DNA of 64,000 nt from Rubripirellula amarantea (GTDB lineage: Bacteria > Planctomycetota > Planctomycetia > Pirellulales > Pirellulaceae): assembly GCF_007859865.1 (NCBI RefSeq), contig NZ_SJPI01000001.1, forward strand, positions 2,294,001-2,358,000. The letters are read 5' to 3'. A program made the position numbers and the translations under genes. Below the pieces are notes generated by a model. It saw only the letters and a list, made by a program, of their open reading frames with translations. It was not told the origin of the DNA and ran no database searches. Below, one piece after another: positions 5,677 to 62,110 of the stretch. Within the stretch, counting starts at the first letter, position 1, and the number at the start of each line of letters is the position of its first letter.

Positions 5677-6483
5677 CTAGCCGGTGTTGGCACCAACCTG
5701 CATGCCATCGGGTGCATAAATCGAACGTCCACCATCAACCGGCAAGCAAACCCCATTGATGAAATCGTTCTCGCACAAAAACTGGACCGCGTGCGCGATA
5801 TGCCCTGCCGTTCCAACACGATTGACGAGAGTGCTGGCAGCAATTTGCTTCGCTCTAGCCTCTCCAACGTCATCGGCCAACAAAACAGGTCCAGGCTGAA
5901 TGCAGTTGACGCGGATCTGGTCATGAAGTTGCGACAATTCGACCGCTAGCGAACGAGTCATGACCTCGATGGCGCCCTTGCTTGGGAAATAAGCGGCATG
6001 ATCCAAGTAAGGTCGAACGGTTGCCCAGTCACCGATGTTAACAACGCAGCCACCACGGTCTTGTTTGGCCATCATTACACCGGCAGCACGTGCAGCCAGG
6101 AATGAAGAAAGCGTGTTAACGGTGAAGTACCTTTGGACTTCGGCTGCCTCAATATCGGCAAACGGCGTAGGATGCCAAATTGCGGCGCTGTTGACCAAAA
6201 CGTCAATGCGCCCGAACTTTCCCACCGTTTCATCGACCAAACGCGACGCTGTTTGAGTGTCCTCGAGTGAACCAAGCGTGACCAAGGTTTCGACTTCAAA
6301 TTTGTCCGCGATCGACCTTGCGGCCTCGTCGGCTTCGTCAACGGAAGTGTTCGCGTGCAAGGCGATATGGCATCCCAGCGACGCCAAATGTTCTGCAATC
6401 GCCCGACCAACGCGCGGAGCGCCACTGCCGGTGACCAAGGCAACAGGATGAGTCGTGGCAAAGTTTTGCTGAAGCGTCGTCAT
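5677..6483 (-). CDS. Pteridine-reductase-like short-chain dehydrogenase
   Basis: NAD(P)H-dependent SDR-fold oxidoreductase of 268 residues, from the ATG at 6483. The frame extends to 6582, but that would overlap the upstream UbiD gene, and the extra residues lie outside the fold. The cofactor loop is TGSGAPRVG (residues 18-26), a one-residue-longer variant of the TGxxxRxG loop of pteridine reductases. Tyr165 and Lys169 form YxxxK. The usual SDR serine is absent; instead Asp152 lies 13 residues before the Tyr, as in the Asp-Tyr-Lys triad of pteridine reductase PTR1. RVNCIQPGPVLL also resembles that group. A pterin or folate substrate is therefore plausible, given the one-carbon genes next to it, but not proven. 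Confidence 0.82.
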   Translation of the reverse strand: MTTLQQNFATTHPVALVTGSGAPRVGRAIAEHLASLGCHIALHANTSVDEADEAARSIADKFEVETLVTLGSLEDTQTASRLVDETVGKFGRIDVLVNSAAIWHPTPFADIEAAEVQRYFTVNTLSSFLAARAAGVMMAKQDRGGCVVNIGDWATVRPYLDHAAYFPSKGAIEVMTRSLAVELSQLHDQIRVNCIQPGPVLLADDVGEARAKQIAASTLVNRVGTAGHIAHAVQFLCENDFINGVCLPVDGGRSIYAPDGMQVGANTG

Positions 6484-6535
6484 AAGAGTTAAAATGGTTG
6501 AAGCAAGGAGGGCATCATCGAATGGAATTGCAGCA

Positions 6536-8383
6536 CTATAAGTATGCGGCGAGCTTACCACCGCGTGCAGCCATGGCGTCAATCTTCTTGGTCACCTCGG
6601 GGGCTTCGATCAGCGGCGGTGCGTGGTGTGGTTTGACACGAGCGTCGATGATTAACGATCCGCGAGTCCCCCAATGCTTTTGTTGAACAAAGGAATCAAT
6701 CCCGTCGATGTCGATCGCGGGGTTACTGCGAGTGAACGTTGTCCACAGCCAATTCGACAAATTTCTTGACGCAAAATCGCTGTCGTCTACAAGGGTGATA
6801 AGCGGGAATGCGTTGATCGGTGCGCTCGTGTCAAAATACTTTGCGAACCGAGATAGATGTTCGCGGTCCGACTCGCTACGGCAAGCTGGTGATTGGATCG
6901 CGAGCACACCTGGGGCGACGACTCGTGGATTAGAAAAGCCATCGGGCAACGAAAGAGTTGCGGGAACCTCCATCGGCAGTTCACGGATCGGATCCCCCGT
7001 TGCGGCGATTACGACCTTCGAACCCTGATTGAAACCCGTGCCACTGTAGTCCAGCGTGTCAATTGTGGTCTTGGTTTGAAAGTGCAAGTCACGCCGCCAG
7101 TCGACACGACGAAGCATGTGCTGAAGGAACGCATCGAGATCATGAATCTTAAGCCGATCCTCGCGATCATCAGTGATCCATAAGTACTTGGCGAGTGACA
7201 GTTGACCATTGCCCAAAATTGCATTGGCTTGTGTCAGAAGTTCTTGCGGCTCAGCAGGCTTTAAATGTGGCATGTAGCGTTCGCTTCCGATCGCCAACAA
7301 CAAAGGATGGACGCCCGCAGCATCGACCGCATGAACGGCTTTGACGCCCGGAATCACCGAAGGGAGGATCGGGTCGGTCAATTCGTGAATCAGTTGACCA
7401 AAGGTGGTGTCTTCTTGAGGCGGACGTCCCACCACCGTGAACGGCCAAATCGCTCCGTCGCGATGCCACACCTTTTCGACCTGCATGACTGGAAACGAAT
7501 GTCGCAGGCTGTAGTAACCCAAGTGATCGCCAAACGGTCCTTCGGGTTTGGCATCCCCCGGTGATATCGTTCCCACGATTGCAAAGTCGGCATCGCCATA
7601 AACCGGCGCGTGATTGCCGCGGATCATTCGCATACGTCGACCCGCCAACGCACCGCCAAATGTCAATTCAGTCAACCCTTCGGGCAACGGCATCACCGCA
7701 GCAAGTGACATCGCTGGCGAGCCACCGACGGTGATCGCTACTCGAAGCGATTCGCCTCGGTCAAGCGCGGCGCGGTGGTGGACGCCGATGCCTCGATGGA
7801 TTTGATAGTGCAGCCCTACTTCGCGGTCAGTCTCGTAGTCGTTACCAGACAACTGCACGCGATACATTCCAAGGTTCACTCGCATCAAGTTGCCGGGTGC
7901 CGAAGGGTCGTCGCTAAGCACTTGCGGCAACGTTACGAATGGACCGCCGTCATCGGGCCAGCACTTGATAGGGGGCAATTCCGAAAGCCGACATTGATTC
8001 GCTTGGACCGGACCTCGACGGGTACCTCGCGGTAGCATTGTCAAAGCCGTCCATGGAACTCCCGCGTATCGGAATGGACGCTTGGGAAGTGCCGAGGGAT
8101 CCACTTTTACTTCGATCACGCGGCGAACCGATTCCAGCGTATCGCGAAACAGGTATCTCGCCTGTTCTAGGGAAGCAAACAGATTAGAAGCGGCCGGGAA
8201 TTGGCATCCGATAAGATTCTTGAACAGCAGCGCCGGACCATTTGACGCATAGACCCGACGTTGGATTTCGGCAGCTTCCAAGTTGGGATCCACCGGTTCA
8301 TCGATCTCAATCAGTCGTTCGGCACGGCGTAGATCGTTGATCACTTCGCGGGTAGAGCGGTGCTTCACAGGTTTTTCAAACAA
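6536..8383 (-). CDS. UbiD family prenylated-FMN decarboxylase
   Basis: 615-residue member of the UbiD family of reversible aromatic or unsaturated-acid decarboxylases that use prenylated FMN. The signature region KPEGPFGDHLGYYSL, with the conserved Glu and an Arg/His-rich neighbourhood, is present near the middle. It is preceded by GGSPAMSLAAVMPLPEGLTE, typical of the 4-hydroxy-3-polyprenylbenzoate/menaquinone-type members. Length is greater than E. coli UbiD (about 497 residues) because of extra C-terminal sequence. The UbiX partner that makes the cofactor is not in the window. It could act in quinone biosynthesis or aromatic-acid turnover. It is upstream of, and probably co-transcribed with, the SDR gene. 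Confidence 0.88.
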   Translation of the reverse strand: MFEKPVKHRSTREVINDLRRAERLIEIDEPVDPNLEAAEIQRRVYASNGPALLFKNLIGCQFPAASNLFASLEQARYLFRDTLESVRRVIEVKVDPSALPKRPFRYAGVPWTALTMLPRGTRRGPVQANQCRLSELPPIKCWPDDGGPFVTLPQVLSDDPSAPGNLMRVNLGMYRVQLSGNDYETDREVGLHYQIHRGIGVHHRAALDRGESLRVAITVGGSPAMSLAAVMPLPEGLTELTFGGALAGRRMRMIRGNHAPVYGDADFAIVGTISPGDAKPEGPFGDHLGYYSLRHSFPVMQVEKVWHRDGAIWPFTVVGRPPQEDTTFGQLIHELTDPILPSVIPGVKAVHAVDAAGVHPLLLAIGSERYMPHLKPAEPQELLTQANAILGNGQLSLAKYLWITDDREDRLKIHDLDAFLQHMLRRVDWRRDLHFQTKTTIDTLDYSGTGFNQGSKVVIAATGDPIRELPMEVPATLSLPDGFSNPRVVAPGVLAIQSPACRSESDREHLSRFAKYFDTSAPINAFPLITLVDDSDFASRNLSNWLWTTFTRSNPAIDIDGIDSFVQQKHWGTRGSLIIDARVKPHHAPPLIEAPEVTKKIDAMAARGGKLAAYL

Positions 8384-8531
8384 GGTGCGAGTACGAAATG
8401 CAGCGGGAACGGGAAGCCAGACGGAATGATTTGGTCACGCGTTCGTCGGGTAGGATAACCGCGTTGGCCGCGCTAGACTAACCGGTCACACTACCATCGT
8501 TTTTTCTCTTGATGGCTTAACCTGAAAACCT

Positions 8532-10016
8532 ATGAAAAACACAAAATTGCCTTCTCTTAGCCTAGCGTCCGGGGCACTCGACGGATCCAGCGATTCCTCA
8601 TCGGTCGAAATCATCGTCGTTGGTTTGGCTGCCGAAAACACGCCGTCGCCAACCCTCAAAGCAATTGACTCGGCAACCGGTGGTTGGATCGGTCGCTTGA
8701 TCGAAGGCGGACAACTCCGCAGCAAGAAGGGCGAAATGAGTTTGCTCGCTTCGCCTTTGGCCACGGGGCCCACCATGATCTTGGTCGTGGGATTGGGAGA
8801 GAAGGAAGCCAAGCGATCCGATGCGTTTGAACTCGCAAGTTCAGCGATTCGAAAGCTTACCGATCGCGAACGAGGCACGATCGTGATCGCGTTGGCCGAG
8901 TGCTTCGATAAAAGCTTGCATGATGGAGTCGTCGCCGGTGCGCTCTATGGACTCGAAGGTCAATCGCTCTACCAAGCTGAACCCGCAGCCAAGATGCCAG
9001 TGGCGATTCAGTTCGCCGGAATAGATAAAGCGGTCCTGGATCGCGGAAAACAAATTGGGGAAGCAATCAACGCCACCAAACGATTGGTCAACGAACCGGC
9101 ATCGGAAATCTATCCCGCCAGCTTCGCTGATCGAGCGGTGGCGATGGCTAACGAAGCGGGACTCGAAATAGAAGTGTGGGACGAAACAAAGTTAGCCGAC
9201 GAAGGTTGCCGTGCCATCCTTGCCGTCGGCCGAGCTTCGGCGTGTCCACCGCGTTTGGTGATTTTCCGGCACAACGGTGGTGGAGACGAGGCACCGCTTG
9301 CGATTGTTGGCAAAGGCGTCACCTTCGATAGCGGTGGTTTGTCATTGAAGCCGAGTGACGGCATGGTAGACATGAAGTGCGATATGGCGGGTGCCGCAAC
9401 TGTATTCGGCGTCATGCAAGCGATCGCAAAACTGGGAATCAAACAGAACGTCATCGGGCTTTGCGGTTTGGCTGAAAACATGGTGGCCGGAAACAGCTAC
9501 CGTCTCGGCGATGTGATTGAAACTCGTAGCGGCAAAACGATCGAGATCCTTAACACGGACGCTGAGGGAAGAGTCGTGTTGGCGGATACGCTTGATGTTG
9601 CCATTGAGAATCATCCACGAGCAATGGTGGACTTAGCGACGCTGACGGGAGCGTGCATGGTAGCGCTCGGCAACGATGTTGCTGGGTTGATGACCAACGA
9701 CGATTCGCTTTGTCAGACGTTGGCAAAGGCAGCGTCACAAGAAGGCGAACATGTTTGGCAACTGCCAATGTTCAAACTGTATGACGAGAAAATTAAGAGC
9801 AAGGTTGCAGACATCAAGAATGTTGGCGAGGGCCGTTGGGGCGGCGCGATCACGGCGGCGAAGTTCTTAGAGAACTTTGTGGGCGATGTGCCTTGGGTCC
9901 ACATCGACATCGCAGGTCCGGCATTCATGGATTCACCCAAACCCCATCGAGACGCGGGCGCCACAGGTGTCATGGTGCGGACCTTGCTTCGTTGGATCGA
10001 AAACAACGAAGCGTAA
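8532..10016 (+). CDS. pepA: Leucyl aminopeptidase (M17)
   Basis: Cytosolic two-metal aminopeptidase of 494 residues, full length for PepA. The N-terminal macro-like domain covers about residues 1-170. The catalytic domain begins near VGKGVTFDSGGLSLKP, with the metal-binding Lys/Asp set in GMVDMKCDMAGAATV. The M17 signature NTDAEGRVVLADTL is intact, followed by ATLTGACMVALG. The C-terminal WVHIDIAGPAF is also typical. It is monocistronic and convergent with the pilus gene cpaE, with a terminator hairpin between them. Confidence 0.96.
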   Translation: MKNTKLPSLSLASGALDGSSDSSSVEIIVVGLAAENTPSPTLKAIDSATGGWIGRLIEGGQLRSKKGEMSLLASPLATGPTMILVVGLGEKEAKRSDAFELASSAIRKLTDRERGTIVIALAECFDKSLHDGVVAGALYGLEGQSLYQAEPAAKMPVAIQFAGIDKAVLDRGKQIGEAINATKRLVNEPASEIYPASFADRAVAMANEAGLEIEVWDETKLADEGCRAILAVGRASACPPRLVIFRHNGGGDEAPLAIVGKGVTFDSGGLSLKPSDGMVDMKCDMAGAATVFGVMQAIAKLGIKQNVIGLCGLAENMVAGNSYRLGDVIETRSGKTIEILNTDAEGRVVLADTLDVAIENHPRAMVDLATLTGACMVALGNDVAGLMTNDDSLCQTLAKAASQEGEHVWQLPMFKLYDEKIKSKVADIKNVGEGRWGGAITAAKFLENFVGDVPWVHIDIAGPAFMDSPKPHRDAGATGVMVRTLLRWIENNEA

Positions 10017-10069
10017 GCGAACGACAACCAAGCGCAAGCAAAAAACAACTAGGTGTAAGCAAAAAACAA

Positions 10070-10098
10070 CAGGACGCTCTGCGATGCAGAGCGTCCTG
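10070..10098. terminator. Perfect 13-bp hairpin between convergent pepA and cpaE
   Basis: CAGGACGCTCTGC and GCAGAGCGTCCTG form a perfect 13-bp stem with a GAT loop. It sits 54 bp after the pepA stop and 33 bp after the cpaE stop. For the minus-strand transcript the segment beyond the stem reads GTTGTTTTTT, a U-rich tail. For the plus strand the tail is only weakly U-rich (GACTGTTTG). It therefore best serves the cpaB-C-E transcript and may act in both directions. Confidence 0.8.
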
Positions 10099-10130
10099 GA
10101 CTGTTTGTGCGTCTAGATGTGGGTGACGGG

Positions 10131-11348
10131 CTAGGCTTTAGCGCCCGGCCAGAACTTCTTCCACTTACTTTCGCCTGCCGCGACCGATTCTTCGTCGGCC
10201 TCTTCGCCTTTTTGAGCACCGCCTTGCAGTTTCTCTGCAAGCTCTCGGATACCCTGAGTGATAGCCGCCTTGGGTGCCTGGGTGATGAGCGGAACGCCGT
10301 TGTTGCGAACTTCGACCATCGTGCGATAGTCATTGGGTAACAACGAGAAAATTTCGCGTCCGAGCGTTTCCTTCGCCTTCTTCAAGCTGATTTGGCCTGA
10401 GTCGAGACCCGCACGGTTGACGACGATTTCCACTTTGCTGGACAAACCTTCGATTTCTTCGAAGCTCATCATCAAGCGAACAACATTTCTCAAACAGGGC
10501 AAGTCAAGTTGAGTGACCAGGATCACTCGCGTAGCACTTTCAATCGCAGCCATATCTATGGCGCTATAGGTCTTTGAAAGGTCAACGATGAGGTGAGTGA
10601 ACGAAGCCTTCAAGAGGCCAATCACCTTGCGAATGCTGTCCTCGGTAATCGACAATGAATCATGCAGGTCGACCGGGCGCGGCAGCAAGTACAATCCGCT
10701 GCTGTGCTTTGTGAGCGACCGCTTAAGTAGTTGAATATCCAACCGCGACACGTTCTGCACCACATCGGCGAGCGTGTAATCCGGGATCGAATCAAGGAAA
10801 ACATCGGCGTCGCCAAGGGACAAGTCCAAGTCTAACAACGCCACGCTATTGTGTTGGTTTTGGGCAAGCACGCATCCAAGGTTGACCGCCGTGCTGGTCG
10901 TTCCCACACCACCGGTAGCACCGGCGATGGCGTAGATCTCGCAACTTCTTCCACCTGATTCGGACGAACCAAACTTCTGCTGGCTGACTCGTTTGAGCGC
11001 AGCATCCAAGTCATCTTTGGCAAGCGGAAGTGTCAAGAACTCACGAGCGCCCGCTCGCATGGTCTTCAGAATCAGTTGGCCATCCGTACTCTGGCTGGCG
11101 GCCAGGATCGCCGTATCGGGTGCGGACGCAGCAATCTTGGAGATCAGTTGGATTGATTTTTCGGGGTCAGCGTCCAATGAGATCACGCCAACGTCCGGAG
11201 CGGTTTGCTCGATCACGTCGGGGAAGAACTCGTAGCGTGAACAGTCGGCTTCGAGCCAAACAGTGTCCATGCCTAACAGCATCGCTTTGAGCGATTCACG
11301 TGAAGCGTCGTTGGGGTCGACCAACGCGATTCGAAGCACATTGCTCAT
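10131..11348 (-). CDS. cpaE: CpaE/TadZ-like Flp pilus assembly ATPase-family protein
   Basis: 405-residue Tad pilus localisation factor. Residues 1-125 form a receiver-like domain (IALVDPNDASRESLKAML, with TLPLAKDDL near its end). Residues 137-380 are a MinD/ParA-type domain. The P-loop region reads GATGGVGTTS (143-152). Both lysines of the deviant Walker A (KGGxGK) are replaced by Thr, as is common in CpaE/TadZ, so nucleotide hydrolysis is doubtful. The A' motif is VALLDLDLSLGDAD. The C terminus is charged (Glu-rich then Lys/Trp). It is last in the cpaB-cpaC-cpaE series. TadZ proteins are known to place the pilus machine at the pole; that role is inferred here. Confidence 0.88.
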   Translation of the reverse strand: MSNVLRIALVDPNDASRESLKAMLLGMDTVWLEADCSRYEFFPDVIEQTAPDVGVISLDADPEKSIQLISKIAASAPDTAILAASQSTDGQLILKTMRAGAREFLTLPLAKDDLDAALKRVSQQKFGSSESGGRSCEIYAIAGATGGVGTTSTAVNLGCVLAQNQHNSVALLDLDLSLGDADVFLDSIPDYTLADVVQNVSRLDIQLLKRSLTKHSSGLYLLPRPVDLHDSLSITEDSIRKVIGLLKASFTHLIVDLSKTYSAIDMAAIESATRVILVTQLDLPCLRNVVRLMMSFEEIEGLSSKVEIVVNRAGLDSGQISLKKAKETLGREIFSLLPNDYRTMVEVRNNGVPLITQAPKAAITQGIRELAEKLQGGAQKGEEADEESVAAGESKWKKFWPGAKA

Positions 11349-11424: not shown

Positions 11425-13014
11425 TTAGTTCTGTGGCGACGAGATCGTGATGCCTTCGCTGACCACAATCGGTTCGTTGCCTGGGACGATGGCTCCGGCC
11501 GGGATTCCCGATGGGCTGATCACAGCACCTCCGTAAATCTCTTGCCCATAACTAGGTGCGACGGAGGTTGCCGATCCGTAGCATTCGCTTGTTCCGCACG
11601 AGCCATTGCTTAGTCCACCGCCTTCGATGGTGCATCCGCAATCACCGAGCATGTTGGGGACTTCGATGTGGCCCTTCAAGTAAAGTTCCTTGTCGTTAGG
11701 CGAAGCACTGTTGAGGCCTGGCCCACCGCGGGGAACTTCATGAGGATCCATCGCAGCGACGAATTCCGGTGTAACAGTGATTAGAAGTTCGATGTCGTTG
11801 CGTTTCTCGCGAACCTTTCGGAACATGGTTCCGATGTAGGGCAATTCCCCAAGCAGCGGTGTCGCCTTGGTCTGCGACTCGGTTCGACTCTGCAGCAATC
11901 CTGCGATCGCGAACGTTTGACCGGCTTGCAGTTCGACAGCCGTCTCGACGTAGCGGGAACGGAAACCGACCACCTGGGCTCCTGAAACCGTCAAGCTAAG
12001 TGACGAGTCAACCTCGGAAACCTCAGGCCGTACTTCCAAACGAACACGTCCCGGACCCACAACGAAGGGCAGGAAGTCGATGGACGTTCCGAACTCTTCA
12101 TACTGAACTTGGACTTGGCCGTTGTTGCCCGGCACGATGTAAGGCACGCGGCCGCCGACGTTGAAACGAGCAGGACGTCCGTGAGTGGCCACGACTGTTG
12201 GTTCAGCCAAGTACTTGACCAAGTCCTGTTGCCGAAGAGCCGAAATCAAAGCCGAGAAGTCACCGTTGTTGACGAACAGGCGATTGGTCGTGTCGACGCC
12301 CGAAGGAATGTCTCCCGCTACGGTACTTTGCCCGATGTCAATCAACCCGCCAGGCGACGAGTAGAAGAATGCGTCATCAGTGAAGCTACCCCAGTCAATG
12401 CCGAGTTCACGCAACTTGGTGCGTGAGACTTCCATGATGCGAGTGTGCAGAAGAATTTGTTGAACGCCAACCACTTTGATGTTGTTGACGACGGTCGCGT
12501 AGAACTGTTCAACGATTGCGACGGCGCGGTCCACGTCATCCACGTTGGTGACGGTGCCCGAGATAATCGCACTGTTGTTGACCGGAAGCACCTTGAGCGT
12601 TGCGTAAGGCAACTGAGTTCCCAAGATACCTTCGACTTCGCGAGCGTCGGGAATGACCGTCACATCAACGGTATACAGTTTGTCGTTGGTGTCCCAAAGA
12701 TTTAGCTGCGTGGTACCAGGTGCCTTCGCAAAAATCTGGATTTGATTTTGCGAAACGGGAGTGGCATCAAGCAACGTCTCGTTGTGTACTTGGAACTTTG
12801 GAATGCGATCTTCCAAGGTCAAGATGCGACTGCTTTTGACGAGCATTTCAACTCGTTCAACAGTCTGCGAAATACTGCGGTTGACCGCTGACTCCGCTGA
12901 CGTGAGTTGGACCGGTTGCTGTTGCGCCGAGGCTGAATTGGGAGTGATCCCAGCGGTGCCTAATAGCAACAGTGCCGAGGCTGCCAACGAGATCTTAAAA
13001 CGAGATGTTTCCAT
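11425..13014 (-). CDS. cpaC: Tad/Flp pilus outer-membrane secretin (CpaC/RcpA)
   Basis: Forms the outer-membrane channel of the Tad pilus. 529 residues with a signal peptide (residues 1-30, ending SASA before QQQPV). An N-terminal pilus-assembly domain follows (about 50-130), then a BON-like segment (STVTN to QQILLHTRIMEVSR). The secretin core covers about 250-420 and contains VPYIVPGNNGQVQVQYEEFG, QAGQTFAIAGLLQSRTESQ and PLLGELPYIGTMFR. The tail is Cys- and Gly-rich (about 455-475: GDCGCTIEGGGLSNGSCG), unusual for this family. It lies between cpaB and cpaE, 207 bp after cpaB. Confidence 0.92.
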   Translation of the reverse strand: METSRFKISLAASALLLLGTAGITPNSASAQQQPVQLTSAESAVNRSISQTVERVEMLVKSSRILTLEDRIPKFQVHNETLLDATPVSQNQIQIFAKAPGTTQLNLWDTNDKLYTVDVTVIPDAREVEGILGTQLPYATLKVLPVNNSAIISGTVTNVDDVDRAVAIVEQFYATVVNNIKVVGVQQILLHTRIMEVSRTKLRELGIDWGSFTDDAFFYSSPGGLIDIGQSTVAGDIPSGVDTTNRLFVNNGDFSALISALRQQDLVKYLAEPTVVATHGRPARFNVGGRVPYIVPGNNGQVQVQYEEFGTSIDFLPFVVGPGRVRLEVRPEVSEVDSSLSLTVSGAQVVGFRSRYVETAVELQAGQTFAIAGLLQSRTESQTKATPLLGELPYIGTMFRKVREKRNDIELLITVTPEFVAAMDPHEVPRGGPGLNSASPNDKELYLKGHIEVPNMLGDCGCTIEGGGLSNGSCGTSECYGSATSVAPSYGQEIYGGAVISPSGIPAGAIVPGNEPIVVSEGITISSPQN

Positions 13015-13221: not shown

Positions 13222-14307
13222 TTAGTAGCTTGATTGACGCGGTTGTTCGTTGATCGAACCACTGCGCTCAGGTGGTGGTTGAAACAGAGGGCTGTCTTCG
13301 CCATTGAGGTAGCTGTACTCGCCTTCATCCTTCGTGTCACGCGGTTGGGATCGCGACGTTGAACTATCAGTACTGGACGAATTCATGGACCCAGTGTCAT
13401 CGCCGCCAACTTCGCCGATCTTAACCGGCAGTTTTCCGGGGACGATCCAGTACTCGACCATGCGGCCTTCCACCATCTTGATCATGGAGAAGCCATCTTC
13501 CTCTTCTTTTTTCTCTTCCTTCGGCTTCGGCATCATGGTGACGCGTGAGCGATTTCGCGAAGCGTCTTTGTCTCGTTTTGCCTGGTTCGCCGCTTGCTGC
13601 TGGGCTTCGCGATAGTCGTCAAGCCATCCCAGGAATTCCGCAGCGGCTTGATTCGAGCCATCTTCGGTGCTGTAGTCGGCGTCGCTTCCCAAGGCCAATT
13701 GGATCTTGCCGAGTTCGCCGGCGTAGGCCCAAGCTTGTTGGTCTTTCTTGTGAATCAGAAGCTGGATGTTTTGAATTCGTTTGGGCCGGTCATCGCCAGC
13801 TCGTCGTTCGGTATCACCATCAAGGGCGTAGACTCGAACGCCCATCAGCACGGTCTTCAGCATGCTTTGCGGAACCAGTTCGCTCTTTTCAAAGAACGCC
13901 AACACGTCCACCCGGTCGCCTGGTTGAATCAAGTTGGCGATGCTGACGTCGGATGCCTTCATTGCAACCACACTGAAGTTCTTAGGAACCGTAGTCCAGT
14001 TGTCGTCCATTAACTTCAGCGGCATGATCGGTTCGCCGGTATAGAAGCGTTGCTTCGCGTATTTCTCTTCGAGTCCTTCAAAGTCACCGGTGGAACCTTC
14101 GGGGATCTTGTCGATCGGCCATTGTTCCAAGCGGACTTTCTCGGGCGTGATTTCTTCGCCGATATCAATCGCCACGGACGCCACGAAAATTTCGGCGACC
14201 TGCTGATCGGCTTCGCCACCTGTGTTCGCGGTCAGGATTTGATTGGCGACCACGGTGACGATGGTGCCAACAAACAGCGCGATGAGGAGAAAAGCTGACT
14301 TTTTCAT
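13222..14307 (-). CDS. cpaB: Flp pilus assembly protein CpaB/RcpC
   Basis: 361-residue periplasmic Tad component anchored by an N-terminal transmembrane segment (residues 4-24). The SAF domain (about 40-110) holds VASVAIDIGEEITPEKVRLEQWP and YTGEPIMPLKL. The RcpC domain follows (FSVVAMKASDVSIANLIQPG, then GDRVDVLAFF). After residue 220 comes a Lys/Glu-rich and Ser-rich region without predicted structure, including KPKEEKKEEEDGFSM, then a Pro/Arg tail. It probably starts a second transcription unit, because a terminator and a structured leader separate it from the prepilin peptidase gene. Confidence 0.9.
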   Translation of the reverse strand: MKKSAFLLIALFVGTIVTVVANQILTANTGGEADQQVAEIFVASVAIDIGEEITPEKVRLEQWPIDKIPEGSTGDFEGLEEKYAKQRFYTGEPIMPLKLMDDNWTTVPKNFSVVAMKASDVSIANLIQPGDRVDVLAFFEKSELVPQSMLKTVLMGVRVYALDGDTERRAGDDRPKRIQNIQLLIHKKDQQAWAYAGELGKIQLALGSDADYSTEDGSNQAAAEFLGWLDDYREAQQQAANQAKRDKDASRNRSRVTMMPKPKEEKKEEEDGFSMIKMVEGRMVEYWIVPGKLPVKIGEVGGDDTGSMNSSSTDSSTSRSQPRDTKDEGEYSYLNGEDSPLFQPPPERSGSINEQPRQSSY

Positions 14308-14646: not shown

Positions 14647-15213
14647 TTACATCAGCATGCCAGCCAAGGCGAAGTAGGCGATGGAGCCGATAGCCATTGG
14701 GATTCCGTAAGGCAGCAAGTACATGTTTGGCTTGCGTTCACGAGCGATCTCGGCGAGCTTCTTCGGTTGGCGAACATCTTTCCATTCGGCCAAGATTCGG
14801 TGAGCCATCGCGAAGTGATGTTCCCAGTTACCGCTCTTCCAGATCATGTAAGCCGCCATGACACCGCCGACAACGGCTGTCGCTGCGAAAGCATACAGTG
14901 TGATCACGGTGCCAAGCCAAGCTCCGACACCAGCGAGCAGTTTCACATCGCCAGCGCCCATGCCGCCTACGTTGCGAAGCACAAGCAACAGCATCATGCC
15001 GACTACGGTTCCAGCAAGACTGAACAACAAACCGTCGGAGCCGAAGCCACCTTGAACGGTCCAGTGAATCCAGCCCGAGATAATGAATGGGAAGGTCAGC
15101 CAGTTTGGCACCTTCAAGATTTTGCCGTCGATGACAGCGGCCACGACCAATACGATCGAAACGAACCAGACGACCCAGGTTTCAGCGGCGATGGATGCAG
15201 TGGATTGAAACAT
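14647..15213 (-). CDS. Prepilin peptidase (A24 family, TadV/CpaA)
   Basis: Membrane aspartic peptidase that cleaves and matures the Flp prepilin. 188 residues from the ATG at 15213, which has GGGGAA eight bases upstream; the open frame reaches 15267, but those 18 residues are polar. The two catalytic aspartates are Asp29 (AVIDGKILKVPNW) and Asp89 (GMGAGDVKLL, the GxGD motif). About five or six transmembrane helices are visible. It lacks the N-terminal methylase part, as usual for TadV/CpaA. A soluble insert at about 125-160 (HHFAMAHRILAEWKDVRQ) sits between helices. Confidence 0.92.
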   Translation of the reverse strand: MFQSTASIAAETWVVWFVSIVLVVAAVIDGKILKVPNWLTFPFIISGWIHWTVQGGFGSDGLLFSLAGTVVGMMLLLVLRNVGGMGAGDVKLLAGVGAWLGTVITLYAFAATAVVGGVMAAYMIWKSGNWEHHFAMAHRILAEWKDVRQPKKLAEIARERKPNMYLLPYGIPMAIGSIAYFALAGMLM

Positions 15214-15408
15214 GATTGTTCCCCGTGATGTTTTGTTAATGCGGTAGGTTGGTGCTGCGCGAGACAACGCTTCCGTGGTCGGTAGGCAGCGGGTGGGAGG
15301 CGACGCGAGCGTGTGCGATGCTCTGCGAAGCCGGTTGGGTAGGTGGGGACGGTTTCAACAGGTTGTTGATAGGTCGCCAAGGTTGCCGGAATGAATTCAG
15401 CGGCGAGG

Positions 15409-15654: not shown

Positions 15655-15834
15655 TTAGTTGGTGGCGATCTTGTCAGCAACTTCTTGGAACTTGGCGTTG
15701 GCGTTTTGGCCAACCAAGCTGATCGTTCCAAGACAGAAGATAACGATCAGAGCAAGCATAACTGCGTACTCAACTGCAGTTGGGCCATCTTCTTCTTTAA
15801 GGAATTCTACGACGCTGGTTGCGAAATTCTTCAT
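15655..15834 (-). CDS. flp: Flp/Fap-type pilin
   Basis: Major subunit of the Tad pilus, 59 residues, starting at the ATG at 15834 with GGAGAGAG as RBS. The Flp pattern is clear: a short leader (MKNFATSVVEFLKEEDG), then the processing region GPTAVEYAVMLALI with the conserved Glu and Tyr at +5/+6 after the Gly, then a hydrophobic helix. The C-terminal tail is short and polar (about residues 43-59). The prepilin peptidase is in the same unit. It is preceded by a c-di-GMP-I riboswitch. Confidence 0.95.
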   Translation of the reverse strand: MKNFATSVVEFLKEEDGPTAVEYAVMLALIVIFCLGTISLVGQNANAKFQEVADKIATN

Positions 15835-15996
15835 GTGTCTCTCTCCGGAGTGAGATGCACGCCTAGGGCGTGCGATGACTAAGGTAGTGGGGCAGTTCTA
15901 CATGAACCAACTCCCGGCTTAGGCAGCCCGTCTTTCGACTTTCGTCCGACTAGCCTTGGCTGATCAACAACGAGAACTCGTCGTTAACCGTTCCGT
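15835..15996 (-). promoter_or_regulatory. flp leader downstream of the aptamer (expression platform)
   Basis: The 162 nt between the GEMM aptamer and flp hold more structure. GCACGCC-TAG-GGCGTGC (15857-15873) is a 7-bp hairpin just before the RBS. A branched element near 15918-15958 (in minus direction GGCTAGTCGGACGAAAGTC and so on, closed by AAGCC) contains GNRA-like GAAA loops. None has a U tract, so control of translation or RNA stability is as likely as termination. The segment ending AAGCCGGGAG looks like the 3' arm of a GEMM element and might be a degenerate second aptamer. Confidence 0.5.
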
Positions 15997-16082
15997 GGCA
16001 GCCCGGCTATCCTGAGGTTCTCACCAAACGGTGTTACCCACGGATCCGTAGCTTTGCGCCCCGTTTTCTCAAACGGTTTGCC
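15997..16082 (-). promoter_or_regulatory. c-di-GMP-I (GEMM-I) riboswitch aptamer
   Basis: Read on the minus strand from 16082, the element has every GEMM-I landmark in order. GGCAAACC is the 5' core. CCGTTT-GAGA-AAACGG is a stem with a GNRA tetraloop. GGCGCAAAGC is the conserved joining region (consensus GGACGCAAAGC). A variable second arm (CACCGTTTGGTG) comes next. GGATAGCCGGGCTGCC is the 3' core and closes against GGCA. It matches the layout of the Vibrio Vc2 aptamer with few changes. It precedes the pilin gene, which is a known kind of target for this class. Ligand binding is inferred from the motif. Confidence 0.78.
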
Positions 16083-16397
16083 TTTGTCTTGGAAAGCAAG
16101 GCTGACCGAACGATCTGGCCAACGGTTGTCACACCACTGGAAGAACACTCGGCAGCAGATCGAACACCGATCCGCTCACTTCTACAGGAAACCTATGACA
16201 TTCCTAAGCAGAGTCAAAAAACTCCGGCCGAGGAAACCTTAACGATCAGCGAAACTATCCACCTGTGCCGTTTCTGACGGTTACGCAGGGGGTTGGGCCG
16301 TTTTTCAAATCAGAAGTCAATCTTTCAATCCAGTTGCTCGGCCCTTTTAACGACAAGCGTAGAGCGACGTCTGTCACCGGAGATCGACGTTGGCGGC
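16083..16397. other. 315-bp gap between truB and the riboswitch
   Basis: It should carry the promoter of the flp unit on the minus strand. A weak sigma-70-like TTGACT-N16-TAGGTT can be read near 16195-16225, but the -10 is poor. No coding sequence or other repeat is evident. Confidence 0.4.
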
Positions 16398-58826: not shown

Positions 58827-60827
58827 TTACACGCTGACCGGAGGCGAACTATGACCGTCTGCGGTGGGCAAAGGTATCATCGGTTGGGATTGGCGAAGCA
58901 AACGCATTCCTTCGCTTCGACTGGGGTCCGCTAGAAACCTTTTCAGCTCGTCTGGACTGAGCGGAGGTGAAAAGAGGTAACCCTGAGCTGCGTCGCAGCC
59001 CCATTGTTGCAGTCGACGCAATTGTTCGACCGATTCTACGCCTTCGGCCACAATCTTGGCGTTCAGATGATGGGCCAATCCCACAATCGCTTCAGCGATG
59101 ACTGCGTGACTGTGATCCGACGCGATCGAACGTGTAAAGCTGCGATCAATCTTGACTGCTTCAATCGGAAAAGTTTGGAAGCACATCAAAGACGATTGCC
59201 CTTTACCAAAGTCATCGATTTGAATGCCAACCCCTGATGCATGCAAACTTAATAACGTTCGCCGAACTTGGTCGACATGCCGAATGTCGTGCGCTTCATT
59301 CATTTCCAATTTCAATCGGCGTCGATCCAGTTTCTTCCGCAACAAGATTTCATCAAGGCGTTCGACAAAGAACGGATCGGACAGTTGTCGAGGTGAGGTG
59401 TTGAATCCGAGGTAGAAGTCATCTTGGACCACCGATGGGGCCGTGTTTTCGATGCCGCCCAGGTCGCTCATGGCGTGTTCGAATACCCATTCGCCAACCT
59501 GTTGAATCAGTCCAATCTCTTCGATCATCGGAATGAACTCGCTCGGCGAAACGTATTCGCCGCTATCATCTCGCCAACGCAGCAGCACTTCGACACCTTG
59601 AATCTTGGCCGTGTGCAGGTTGAATATGGGTTGATAGTGCAATTCGAAACGATCGTCCTCATGGGCGCGACGCAGTTGGCTTTCTCGTTCCATTCGTCGA
59701 ACGACGTCGTCGTGCATCGTTCGATCGAAGACCGCAATGCGTCCCTTGCCTGCATTTTTAGCCCGGTACATCGCAGTGTCTGCATTGCGAAGCGCCACAT
59801 GTGCATCGACGATTTGATCGTTGATAAAAGCGACACCGACGCTCGTACCGACGTTGACCATTCGTTCGCACAGCGAAAACGGTTCTGAAAGACGCTTGAC
59901 GATTCGGTTGGCCACCTCAATCGCGTCGCAACGTTCGTTTAGGTTTTCGAGCAGAACAACAAACTCGTCACCACCAAGGCGTACCGTTTCGTTCTCGTCA
60001 TCGATCATACGAGTCGCTGTGTCATGTTCACGCACGCATTGCTGCAATCGTTTGGCAACTTGGTTGAGAAGATCGTCACCCGCTTCGTGCCCAAGCGAGT
60101 CGTTGATGATTTTGAAATTGTCGAGATCGAGGAACAGCACGGCGTCTTCGATTTTCGAGTCAGGTTTTCGCGATCGAATCAGTTTCTCGAGTTTTTCTAG
60201 CAGGTAAGAGCGATTGGGCAACGAGGTGAGCGCATCGCGGTGCGCCATCTGTTTCATTTGTTTCTCTGCGCCGCGGCGACGTTGAATCTCGCGACCAAGG
60301 TCTTCCACCTTTTGCCGCTGGATTTTTGCCATGCGAGATTTCTCGCGAAGGGCAAATGCCAACTGCCGAGCTTCATCGGACTCAAATGGCTTTTTCAACA
60401 GCAGTAGCCGATCAGTGCATCCAAGGCGTTCCAGGACTTCGTTCCAACTGTGATCGCTGTACGCGGTGCAGATCACAATTTGCAAATCGGGATCGACCGT
60501 CCAAAGTGCTTCTGCGGTTTCGATTCCGTCCATTCCCGATGGCATTCGCATGTCGACAAACGCGACTGAGAATCCATTCTCTTGGTCAATTGCTCGTTGA
60601 GCTTGTTCCACGGCATCCGCACCACAGGACACGTGCGTCAACTTGTATCGACTTAGCTTTGAATTGAGTTCGAATTCGCTCGTTTGCCGCCCACCGAGAA
60701 AACGGTTTTCAAAATCGTTCAGCGCATGATCTTCACGAACAGTCTGACCAAATATTCGGTCAAAGGTGTCATGGATTTCTTGTTGGTCGTCAACGATCAA
60801 GATTTGGCTATCGTTCATCTCATTCAT
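58827..60827 (-). CDS. Response regulator with GGDEF and EAL domains
   Basis: 666 residues from the ATG at 60827 (GGAG ten bases upstream). The REC domain (about 7-150) contains ILIVDDQQEIHDTF, the phosphorylated aspartate at about residue 92 (AFVDMRMPSGMDG), and the Lys of LLLKKPFESDEA. A coiled linker follows. The GGDEF domain has RLGGDEF at about 283-289, the intact active motif, so c-di-GMP synthesis is possible. The EAL domain has EVLLRW (413-418), HDIRHVDQVRR, DDFGKGQSSL and EGVES, the set for phosphodiesterase activity. Which activity dominates is not known. It lies 5 bp downstream of a histidine kinase gene, its likely partner. Confidence 0.93.
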   Translation of the reverse strand: MNEMNDSQILIVDDQQEIHDTFDRIFGQTVREDHALNDFENRFLGGRQTSEFELNSKLSRYKLTHVSCGADAVEQAQRAIDQENGFSVAFVDMRMPSGMDGIETAEALWTVDPDLQIVICTAYSDHSWNEVLERLGCTDRLLLLKKPFESDEARQLAFALREKSRMAKIQRQKVEDLGREIQRRRGAEKQMKQMAHRDALTSLPNRSYLLEKLEKLIRSRKPDSKIEDAVLFLDLDNFKIINDSLGHEAGDDLLNQVAKRLQQCVREHDTATRMIDDENETVRLGGDEFVVLLENLNERCDAIEVANRIVKRLSEPFSLCERMVNVGTSVGVAFINDQIVDAHVALRNADTAMYRAKNAGKGRIAVFDRTMHDDVVRRMERESQLRRAHEDDRFELHYQPIFNLHTAKIQGVEVLLRWRDDSGEYVSPSEFIPMIEEIGLIQQVGEWVFEHAMSDLGGIENTAPSVVQDDFYLGFNTSPRQLSDPFFVERLDEILLRKKLDRRRLKLEMNEAHDIRHVDQVRRTLLSLHASGVGIQIDDFGKGQSSLMCFQTFPIEAVKIDRSFTRSIASDHSHAVIAEAIVGLAHHLNAKIVAEGVESVEQLRRLQQWGCDAAQGYLFSPPLSPDELKRFLADPSRSEGMRLLRQSQPMIPLPTADGHSSPPVSV

Positions 60828-60832
60828 GGTTT

Positions 60833-62110
60833 TTATTCTCCGCCCGCATCCGTTGATGTCTCGCAAAGTACTGTGCGTCGAGCTTTATTGAGGGACTGCT
60901 CCATTGGCAGTCGAATGGTGATGGTCGAGCCTTGCCCCAGACCGTTACTTGATGCTGCGATGGTTCCCCCGCAGCGTTTGAGCGCAAGCGCACAGAAATG
61001 CAGACCTAAACCAGATCCCGATTCTCGAGTGGTAAAGTGTGCGTCAAAGACATGGCCGAGTGTCTCGGCGGCCATGCCGCATCCGCTGTCTTGAAAATTA
61101 ACCACCACCGAATTGCCTTCGGCGTGCAATTTCACAACGATTTGTTGCGGATTGTCACTGGATGTTTTGATGGCTTGCCGGGCGTTGGTGATAACATTGA
61201 TCATCGTTTGCAGCACCAGCGAGCGATCAGTTCGCGTGACGAACGTGTGTTGATGGTCCGTGACACGGCGAACGCGAATTCGATCTTCGGTCAAATTGGC
61301 TTGGCAGCACGAAATCGCTTCGTCGATTAACTCGTTTATATCGACGCGGTGGAGTGAAACGCGCTGCGATGCATGCTTGTGCTGATCACGAATCACGCTG
61401 TCAATATGACGCACATTGTCGTCTAGTGTTTCAAGAAGTTCCGAAAGATCGCGTTGATCGGATTCCAGTTGGGTTGCAAGTCCCTGCAGATAACTAGGTG
61501 TGGCGGCCAGCAGGTCGTGTTTATCGGTTCCTTGTTCAAGCTGCTTGGCAAGTTGGTGCAGCGGAGCGACACGAAGTTTTTCGACTCGTTTGTTGGCTGT
61601 GTCGATGAGGCTATTCACGTTCGTCAGTACATTGCCAACGTTGTGAATTACCGTTGCTGCTACTTCGCTGCGGCCGTTGGCTTCGGAGGCGTCGGCCAGC
61701 TTTCGTTGCGCTTCCTTCAATCGTTCACGCATGTCGTGGAACGTTTTTGCCAGATCCGCAATTTCGTCGTTGCCTGCGATCGGACGGGCCTGTTCGCCGT
61801 GGTTATTGCCTTGGAATGCGGCGATTTGATGTTTGAGGTCGGCAAGGGGTTGAACGACGATGCGGTGCAGCAACAACCACAAAACCATCAAGGCCGAGAC
61901 ACTGAAAAGCAGGAATGAGCGACGCTCAATCGCCTCCATTTCACTCGAAAACGAAGCCCGCTGAACGACTTCATTGATTCCCAGGAAGATCAGAAAGACG
62001 ATGGCCAGCGACAATACCATTTTACTGCGAATCGAATTGTTGATAGCGCAGCAGTCACCGTTGAGATTCTCGGAGGACTCGGACGACGAAAGCTGTGAAT
62101 CGGGAACCAT
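60833..62110 (-). CDS. Membrane sensor histidine kinase
   Basis: 425 residues. Two transmembrane helices (about 31-49 and 65-83) flank a very short periplasmic loop, so the signal is perhaps sensed in the membrane. A HAMP domain covers about 84-135 (IVVQPLADLKHQIAAF). The dimerisation segment contains the phosphorylated His156 in AATVIHNVGNVLTNVNSLID, a variant H box. The HATPase domain has INVITNARQAI (N box), FQDSGCGMAAETL (G1), and GSGLGLHFCALALKRCGG (G2). It is followed by the GGDEF-EAL response regulator, so it probably controls c-di-GMP. Confidence 0.92.
   Translation of the reverse strand: MVPDSQLSSSESSENLNGDCCAINNSIRSKMVLSLAIVFLIFLGINEVVQRASFSSEMEAIERRSFLLFSVSALMVLWLLLHRIVVQPLADLKHQIAAFQGNNHGEQARPIAGNDEIADLAKTFHDMRERLKEAQRKLADASEANGRSEVAATVIHNVGNVLTNVNSLIDTANKRVEKLRVAPLHQLAKQLEQGTDKHDLLAATPSYLQGLATQLESDQRDLSELLETLDDNVRHIDSVIRDQHKHASQRVSLHRVDINELIDEAISCCQANLTEDRIRVRRVTDHQHTFVTRTDRSLVLQTMINVITNARQAIKTSSDNPQQIVVKLHAEGNSVVVNFQDSGCGMAAETLGHVFDAHFTTRESGSGLGLHFCALALKRCGGTIAASSNGLGQGSTITIRLPMEQSLNKARRTVLCETSTDAGGE

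Follow-up and report, generated by a model that had tools for sequence, protein, structure and literature searches.

Does c-di-GMP control production of the Flp/Tad pilus by acting directly on the pilin mRNA? The question is raised by a short segment upstream of the flp gene of Rubripirellula amarantea. The window, which is the whole 64-kb stretch of DNA analysed here, contains a Tad-pilus cluster that is headed by flp and has its downstream genes on the same strand (Table 1). The original prediction, made from the sequence alone, placed a c-di-GMP-I (GEMM-I) riboswitch directly before flp and pointed to a REC-GGDEF-EAL protein encoded in the same window. That protein is indeed present and might supply or remove the ligand. 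The distance from its gene to the aptamer is about 44 kb; in three relatives (G178, G188 and G189; loci L156, L157 and L160), a similar gene shares a contig with the flp aptamer, at a distance of 22-24 kb. On the tadZ side of the pilus cluster, positions 5677-10131 encode an M17 aminopeptidase, a UbiD-like protein and a short-chain dehydrogenase, and not tadA, tadB or tadC.

A cmscan search of the whole window returned a single above-threshold match, a c-di-GMP-I-class aptamer. The best model was RF03167 (c-di-GMP-I-GGC), at 67.4 bits (E 9.1e-14, minus strand 16091-15993) against a gathering threshold of 59 bits, and RF01051 (c-di-GMP-I) matched the same site at 61.9 bits (minus 15994-16092, E 2.8e-11 for the genome) against a threshold of 35 bits. 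When the genome was searched, the aptamer before flp was the only place over the RF01051 threshold, with a runner-up at no more than 16 bits, and the RF03167 runner-up stayed below threshold at 15.6 bits. Two other candidates, RAGATH-24 (18.8 bits, threshold 45.3) and sR10 (13.2 bits, threshold 45), scored far too low and were discarded. On the minus strand, GGCAAACC is read from 16082 and is followed by a P2 stem capped by a GAGA loop (GNRA type), GGCGCAAAGC, a variable P3 arm and GGATAGCCGGG-CTGCC, and all of the ordered hallmarks on which the prediction had relied are in place. The extent given by the prediction was 15997-16082. Its 15997 falls on the final C of CTGCC, the Rfam match is 4 nt longer there, and conservation extends over a much larger unit. 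The 163 nt that it gave as the distance to flp agrees with the 162-163 nt measured from 15997; from the end of the Rfam match, it is 158 nt.

Sequence-only MAFFT alignments were made of 35 flp leaders from six genera of the window's own group (A2) and of 25 leaders from 18 genera of another group (A1, group B). In A2, 99.4% of the P2/P3 cells are paired, with two-sided changes in 8 of 18 pairs (38 cells), and in A1 95.8% are paired, with such changes in 11 of 17 pairs (43 cells). The covariation score was reached by 0 of 500 shuffles in either alignment, and slid versions of the stems were only 15-49% paired. P2 and P3 covary across the 60 flp leaders and 24 genera. The two checks proposed with the prediction, a significant covariance-model score and paired covariation among relatives, both came out in its favour.

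The position before flp is kept in relatives. Within the genus, RF03167 matches in 21 of 22 genomes (20 over threshold), and within the taxonomic family RF01051 matches in 128 of 241. Flp itself is matched in 217 of the 241 family genomes at E ≤0.01 (202 over the Pfam cut-off), so that at least 89 Flp-bearing genomes have no aptamer match; the link between aptamer and flp is common, not universal. Among 134 family aptamers extracted from the matches listed, mostly the higher-scoring ones, the next gene is flp in 60 (24 genera), a secreted EEDWEL-like protein in 18 and a REC protein in 11, with 12 more fitting a loose TadE/G pattern and 33 outside any assigned class. In the order as a whole, a match is found in 122 of 246 genomes, 89 of these outside the family, and of 18 loci sampled outside the family, all of them among the best matches, 16 precede flp. 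In five genomes (G203, G206, G207, G208 and G214), two tandem flp genes are separated by about 0.7-1.1 kb, and the aptamer stands in this interval, ahead of the second flp. An odd GEMM-like match (L079, G174:C98:1463-1538), with GACGCCAAACC and GACGGAAAGCC, precedes a small secreted protein; it may be contamination, which is listed at 8% for that assembly.

For each of three other contexts, one neighbourhood was annotated with Pfam. The aptamer is followed in one by the secreted EEDWEL gene and then Tad-like and TadE genes (L163, G177), in another by a REC gene and then MCP, CheA-like and REC-DUF4388 proteins (L164, G170), and in the third by TadE, TadE and Tad. For two of these riboswitch-headed neighbourhoods, only distant counterparts were found in the window's genome, with 26-30% identity for the Tad-like protein and at most 39% for REC.

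The aptamer is part of a larger folded flp leader that is common to relatives, as judged from leader comparison. Leaders of the genus share a downstream block, CCAAGGC...GACGAAAGTC...GGCTG, and an upstream element, GGTCAGCCTTGC. In the window, the sequence GGGCTGCC occurs twice, once as the aptamer's 3' end and once in the block, and both copies can pair with GGTCAGCC. In the window's group, the helices termed state A (GCCTTG/CAAGGC, the P1 extension and the GAAA hairpin) have two-sided changes in 8 of 16 pairs (14 cells), and 0 of 500 shuffles reach their score. State B, in which the upstream element and the P1 strand pair with the block, has such changes in 3 of 14 pairs (7 cells), figures reached by 283 of 500 shuffles for pairs and 16 of 500 for cells; its covariation is weak, and its upstream strand is nearly invariant.

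Table 1. Features of the flp leader and its surroundings in the window.
Feature	Position	Strand	Basis or remark
c-di-GMP-I aptamer: core of P1, GAGA-looped P2, and P3	15993..16091	-	RF03167 and RF01051 scores, P2/P3 covariation
G at position 20, ligand-reading base	16082..16082	-	Position by script
A at position 47; the RF03167 model has G there	16055..16055	-	RF03167 alignment and position by script
Upstream element GGTCAGCCTTGC	16096..16107	-	Identical in 19/20 genus leaders; candidate partners are the aptamer's GGGCTGCC or the downstream block
P1 extension 5' strand TTTCC; possible alternative partner, GAAAG of the downstream block	16091..16095	-	Leader sequences
GGGCTGCC, first of two copies, aptamer 3' end	15997..16004	-	Sequence
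Predicted hairpin after P1 (AACGACGAG-TTCT-CGTTGTT region)	15966..15985	-	Folds
GCCAAGGC, complementary to the upstream element's GCCTTG	15953..15960	-	Leader comparison
Hairpin GTCGGACGAAAGTCGAAAGAC with a GAAA loop, within the conserved downstream block	15930..15950	-	Leader comparison
GGGCTGCC, second copy, in the block; candidate rival partner for the upstream element	15922..15929	-	Leader comparison
Hairpin GCACGCC-CTA-GGCGTGC before the ribosome site; both stem sides change within the genus	15857..15873	-	Leader comparison
Shine-Dalgarno-like GGAG	15843..15846	-	Sequence
flp, Flp/Fap pilin	15655..15834	-	PF04964, E 2.5e-8
Prepilin peptidase (TadV-like)	14647..15267	-	PF01478
RcpC/CpaB-like protein	13222..14307	-	PF16976
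Secretin (RcpA/CpaC-like)	11425..13014	-	PF00263
TadZ/CpaE-like ATPase	10131..11348	-	PF01656; PF16968 under its cut-off
REC-GGDEF-EAL protein	58827..60866	-	Candidate ligand source or sink

Long-range helices outside the aptamer were first suggested in the other group by a consensus fold of 21 leaders. Helix X1 joins GGCCTGCC with GGCAGGCC, X2 joins GCCTC with GAGGC, and X3 joins the 5' strand of P1 (TCCTC) with a GAGGA that adjoins X2's partner. On the 25 leaders of A1, which overlaps in sequences with the alignment from which these helices were proposed, 13 of 18 pairs have two-sided changes (28 cells against 13.4 in shuffles), 81.2% of cells are paired against 39-45% in slid versions, and each of five measures is reached by at most 1 of 500 shuffles. 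Fifteen distinct, previously unused leaders from outside the family give moderate support to such helices there: the longest exact complement between the upstream 28 nt and the downstream part averages 7.7 against 6.2 when shuffled, and it falls in the X1 stretch, with changing letters, in 10 of the 15. In 5 of these 15 leaders only, it is reached by no more than 5% of shuffles. A candidate helix between the block's GAGACG and a CGTCTC ahead of the ribosome site was dismissed on visual inspection, since the partner stays unchanged in leaders with GGAAACG, and an RNAduplex comparison of upstream and downstream parts from own and foreign genomes proved too noisy.

The outcome of folding varies with the chosen segment ends. 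For a segment that starts with the upstream element and stops where the block ends, all 20 genus leaders have state B in their free minimum fold, and state A comes out worse by 4.2 to 17.9 kcal/mol in the 19 leaders that yielded a score. With the full leader, about 30 nt longer upstream, the upstream element is predicted to pair mainly with the aptamer in 11 of the 20, including the window's own, with the downstream leader in seven and further upstream in two. Barring the aptamer from outside pairing, which is a crude stand-in for bound ligand, raises the predicted pairing between upstream region and downstream leader in 17 of the 20. In the other group, the same treatment mostly lowers the predicted long-range pairing, and the long-range helices occur in only a minority of single-sequence folds.

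Two familiar outputs were considered. Compared with and without the aptamer, predicted Shine-Dalgarno accessibility rose by more than 0.05 in 11 of 60 leaders and fell by as much in 5 (mean +0.018), and direct masking was rejected on account of this inconsistency. A terminator scan found no intrinsic terminator on the minus strand in the window's leader. Terminator-like sites are present in 16 of the 60 leaders, against 7.4 expected from shuffles, and the window's is not among them; an intrinsic terminator was therefore rejected as a general output, and may serve in a few relatives.

The aptamer might bind c-di-GMP while the surrounding helices are not switched by it and form a fixed scaffold, which would lend stability to an abundant pilin mRNA. 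Such a scaffold would fit the unresponsive Shine-Dalgarno accessibility, the closing helix that spares P2 and P3 in the segment folds, and the P1 extension, for which no covariation was found in the 25 group B leaders. It sits poorly with a P1 5' strand that joins a covarying alternative helix and with a single upstream element that has two rival partners, the aptamer and a near-copy downstream, an arrangement that suggests a switch. We regard a fixed scaffold as rather unlikely. It is scarcely credible that the aptamer is a non-functional relic: it is present once here, against up to four copies in other matching members of the genus, but its score is high, its core intact and its stems covary among flp leaders.

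A different doubt concerns the ligand, since the aptamer could belong with the -GGC relatives or another variant and sense a different dinucleotide, such as 3',3'-cGAMP. Positions 20 and 47 (Vc2 numbering; 16082 and 16055 here) are the ligand-reading sites, and a G at the A47 equivalent is presumably the mark of the -GGC class, judging from the model consensus and the meaning of its name. The window aptamer has G at 20, A at 47 and CC on the 3' side (15998-15997). RF03167 does outscore RF01051, but in its alignment the model's G between CGC and AAGC faces an A in the window. The same A is found by script in 133 of the 134 family aptamers, and the lone exception is misregistered and is an A by eye. 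At position 20, the script read G in 125, A in four and C in one; of the four unread, three proved on inspection to have G, and the fourth is a degenerate match. On account of its ligand-reading bases the window aptamer is classed as an ordinary c-di-GMP-I aptamer, by sequence, despite the higher RF03167 score. The class name given in the original prediction is upheld by these bases, but the top Rfam model is the -GGC relative.

In one study, the A20G change makes a cGAMP-selective RNA selective for c-di-GMP, and Hypr cyclases have Ser/Thr in place of the GGDEF signature Asp (PMC6456294); another treats position 20 as a selectivity factor more than a hard filter (PMC9262584). All nine GGDEF domains found in the window's genome are GHxxGD, with the usual Asp, and none has the Hypr Ser/Thr, the GGDEF type being the cGAMP maker covered. 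A20 or C20 in the same leader of genus relatives speaks for a different dinucleotide, which nevertheless appears improbable for the window. Those relatives have A20 in the flp-leader aptamers of G180, G188 and G189 (L049, L050 and L057) and C20 in that of G178 (L054); in G154, A20 is found in an aptamer before an EEDWEL gene (L118). Seven GGDEF domains were found in all in the four genomes with deviant flp leaders, three of these assemblies being at most 92% complete, and all seven are GHxxGD, with no Hypr-type cGAMP source among them. The A20/C20 relatives would offer a natural experiment on a change of ligand choice.

The reading that we prefer, and consider likely, is that the flp mRNA leader carries a cis-acting c-di-GMP-I riboswitch, with the ligand deciding how the leader folds. 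Computation gave the aptamer, its conserved place before flp and the covarying long-range helices in related leaders; we infer the binding of c-di-GMP, the competition, the output step and its direction. Without ligand, the upstream element would invade the aptamer and pair with its GGGCTGCC end and GGCAA stretch. With c-di-GMP holding the aptamer together, the element would be released and could form base pairs with the other GGGCTGCC copy, the one in the downstream block; that the ligand acts in this way is suggested by the two copies of GGGCTGCC and by the rise in pairing when the aptamer is blocked. The output step might lie in translation, in the stability of the RNA or in Rho-dependent termination. 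Since attachment is what Tad pili are for, high c-di-GMP would be expected to give more flp expression, as in an ON switch. Pilus production is probably tuned by the mRNA's direct sensing of c-di-GMP.

The aptamer itself belongs to a well-known class, and its gene context fits that class. What the leader adds is a link, open to direct testing, from c-di-GMP to Flp/Tad pilus production, in a bacterial group for which a literature search, thin on subscription papers, found no report of a c-di-GMP riboswitch linked to flp or of the extended leader (planctomycetes, Rhodopirellula). A Rhodopirellula-1 motif is listed in a table of a 2010 paper (PMC2864571). The same aptamer class before TadE/Tad genes and a chemosensory cluster in related genomes points to an RNA-based surface regulon, and the leader suggests a large c-di-GMP expression platform of unusual design. 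A more far-reaching proposal, possible and on balance doubtful, is that flp leaders across the order are a large structured RNA outside Rfam, in which c-di-GMP picks long-range folds without a terminator or Shine-Dalgarno masking, and that one genus has changed G20 to A or C though only ordinary GGDEF domains were found there.

Compared with known systems, the window aptamer has the P1/P2/P3 plan and GNRA loop of c-di-GMP-I (RF01051), and also its G20, A47 and 3'-side CC. In that class, the GNRA loop on P2 docks into a receptor in P3; the window has GAGA as this loop. It differs in lying inside a larger conserved leader with long-range helices and without a visible terminator. With c-di-GMP-I-GGC (RF03167) it has in common the best Rfam score, over threshold, and differs in having A for the model's G. 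The gene context of c-di-GMP-I includes surface structures (PMC7266159), which matches the window. The GEMM-Ib c-AMP-GMP riboswitches have A20, whereas the window has G20 and no Hypr GGDEF was found in its genome; that of Geobacter pilM acts via a terminator, and none was found in the window's leader. The scaffold is nevertheless the same and is likewise placed before pilus genes, and the pilM riboswitch is described as an ON switch (PMC6456294, PMC9262584).
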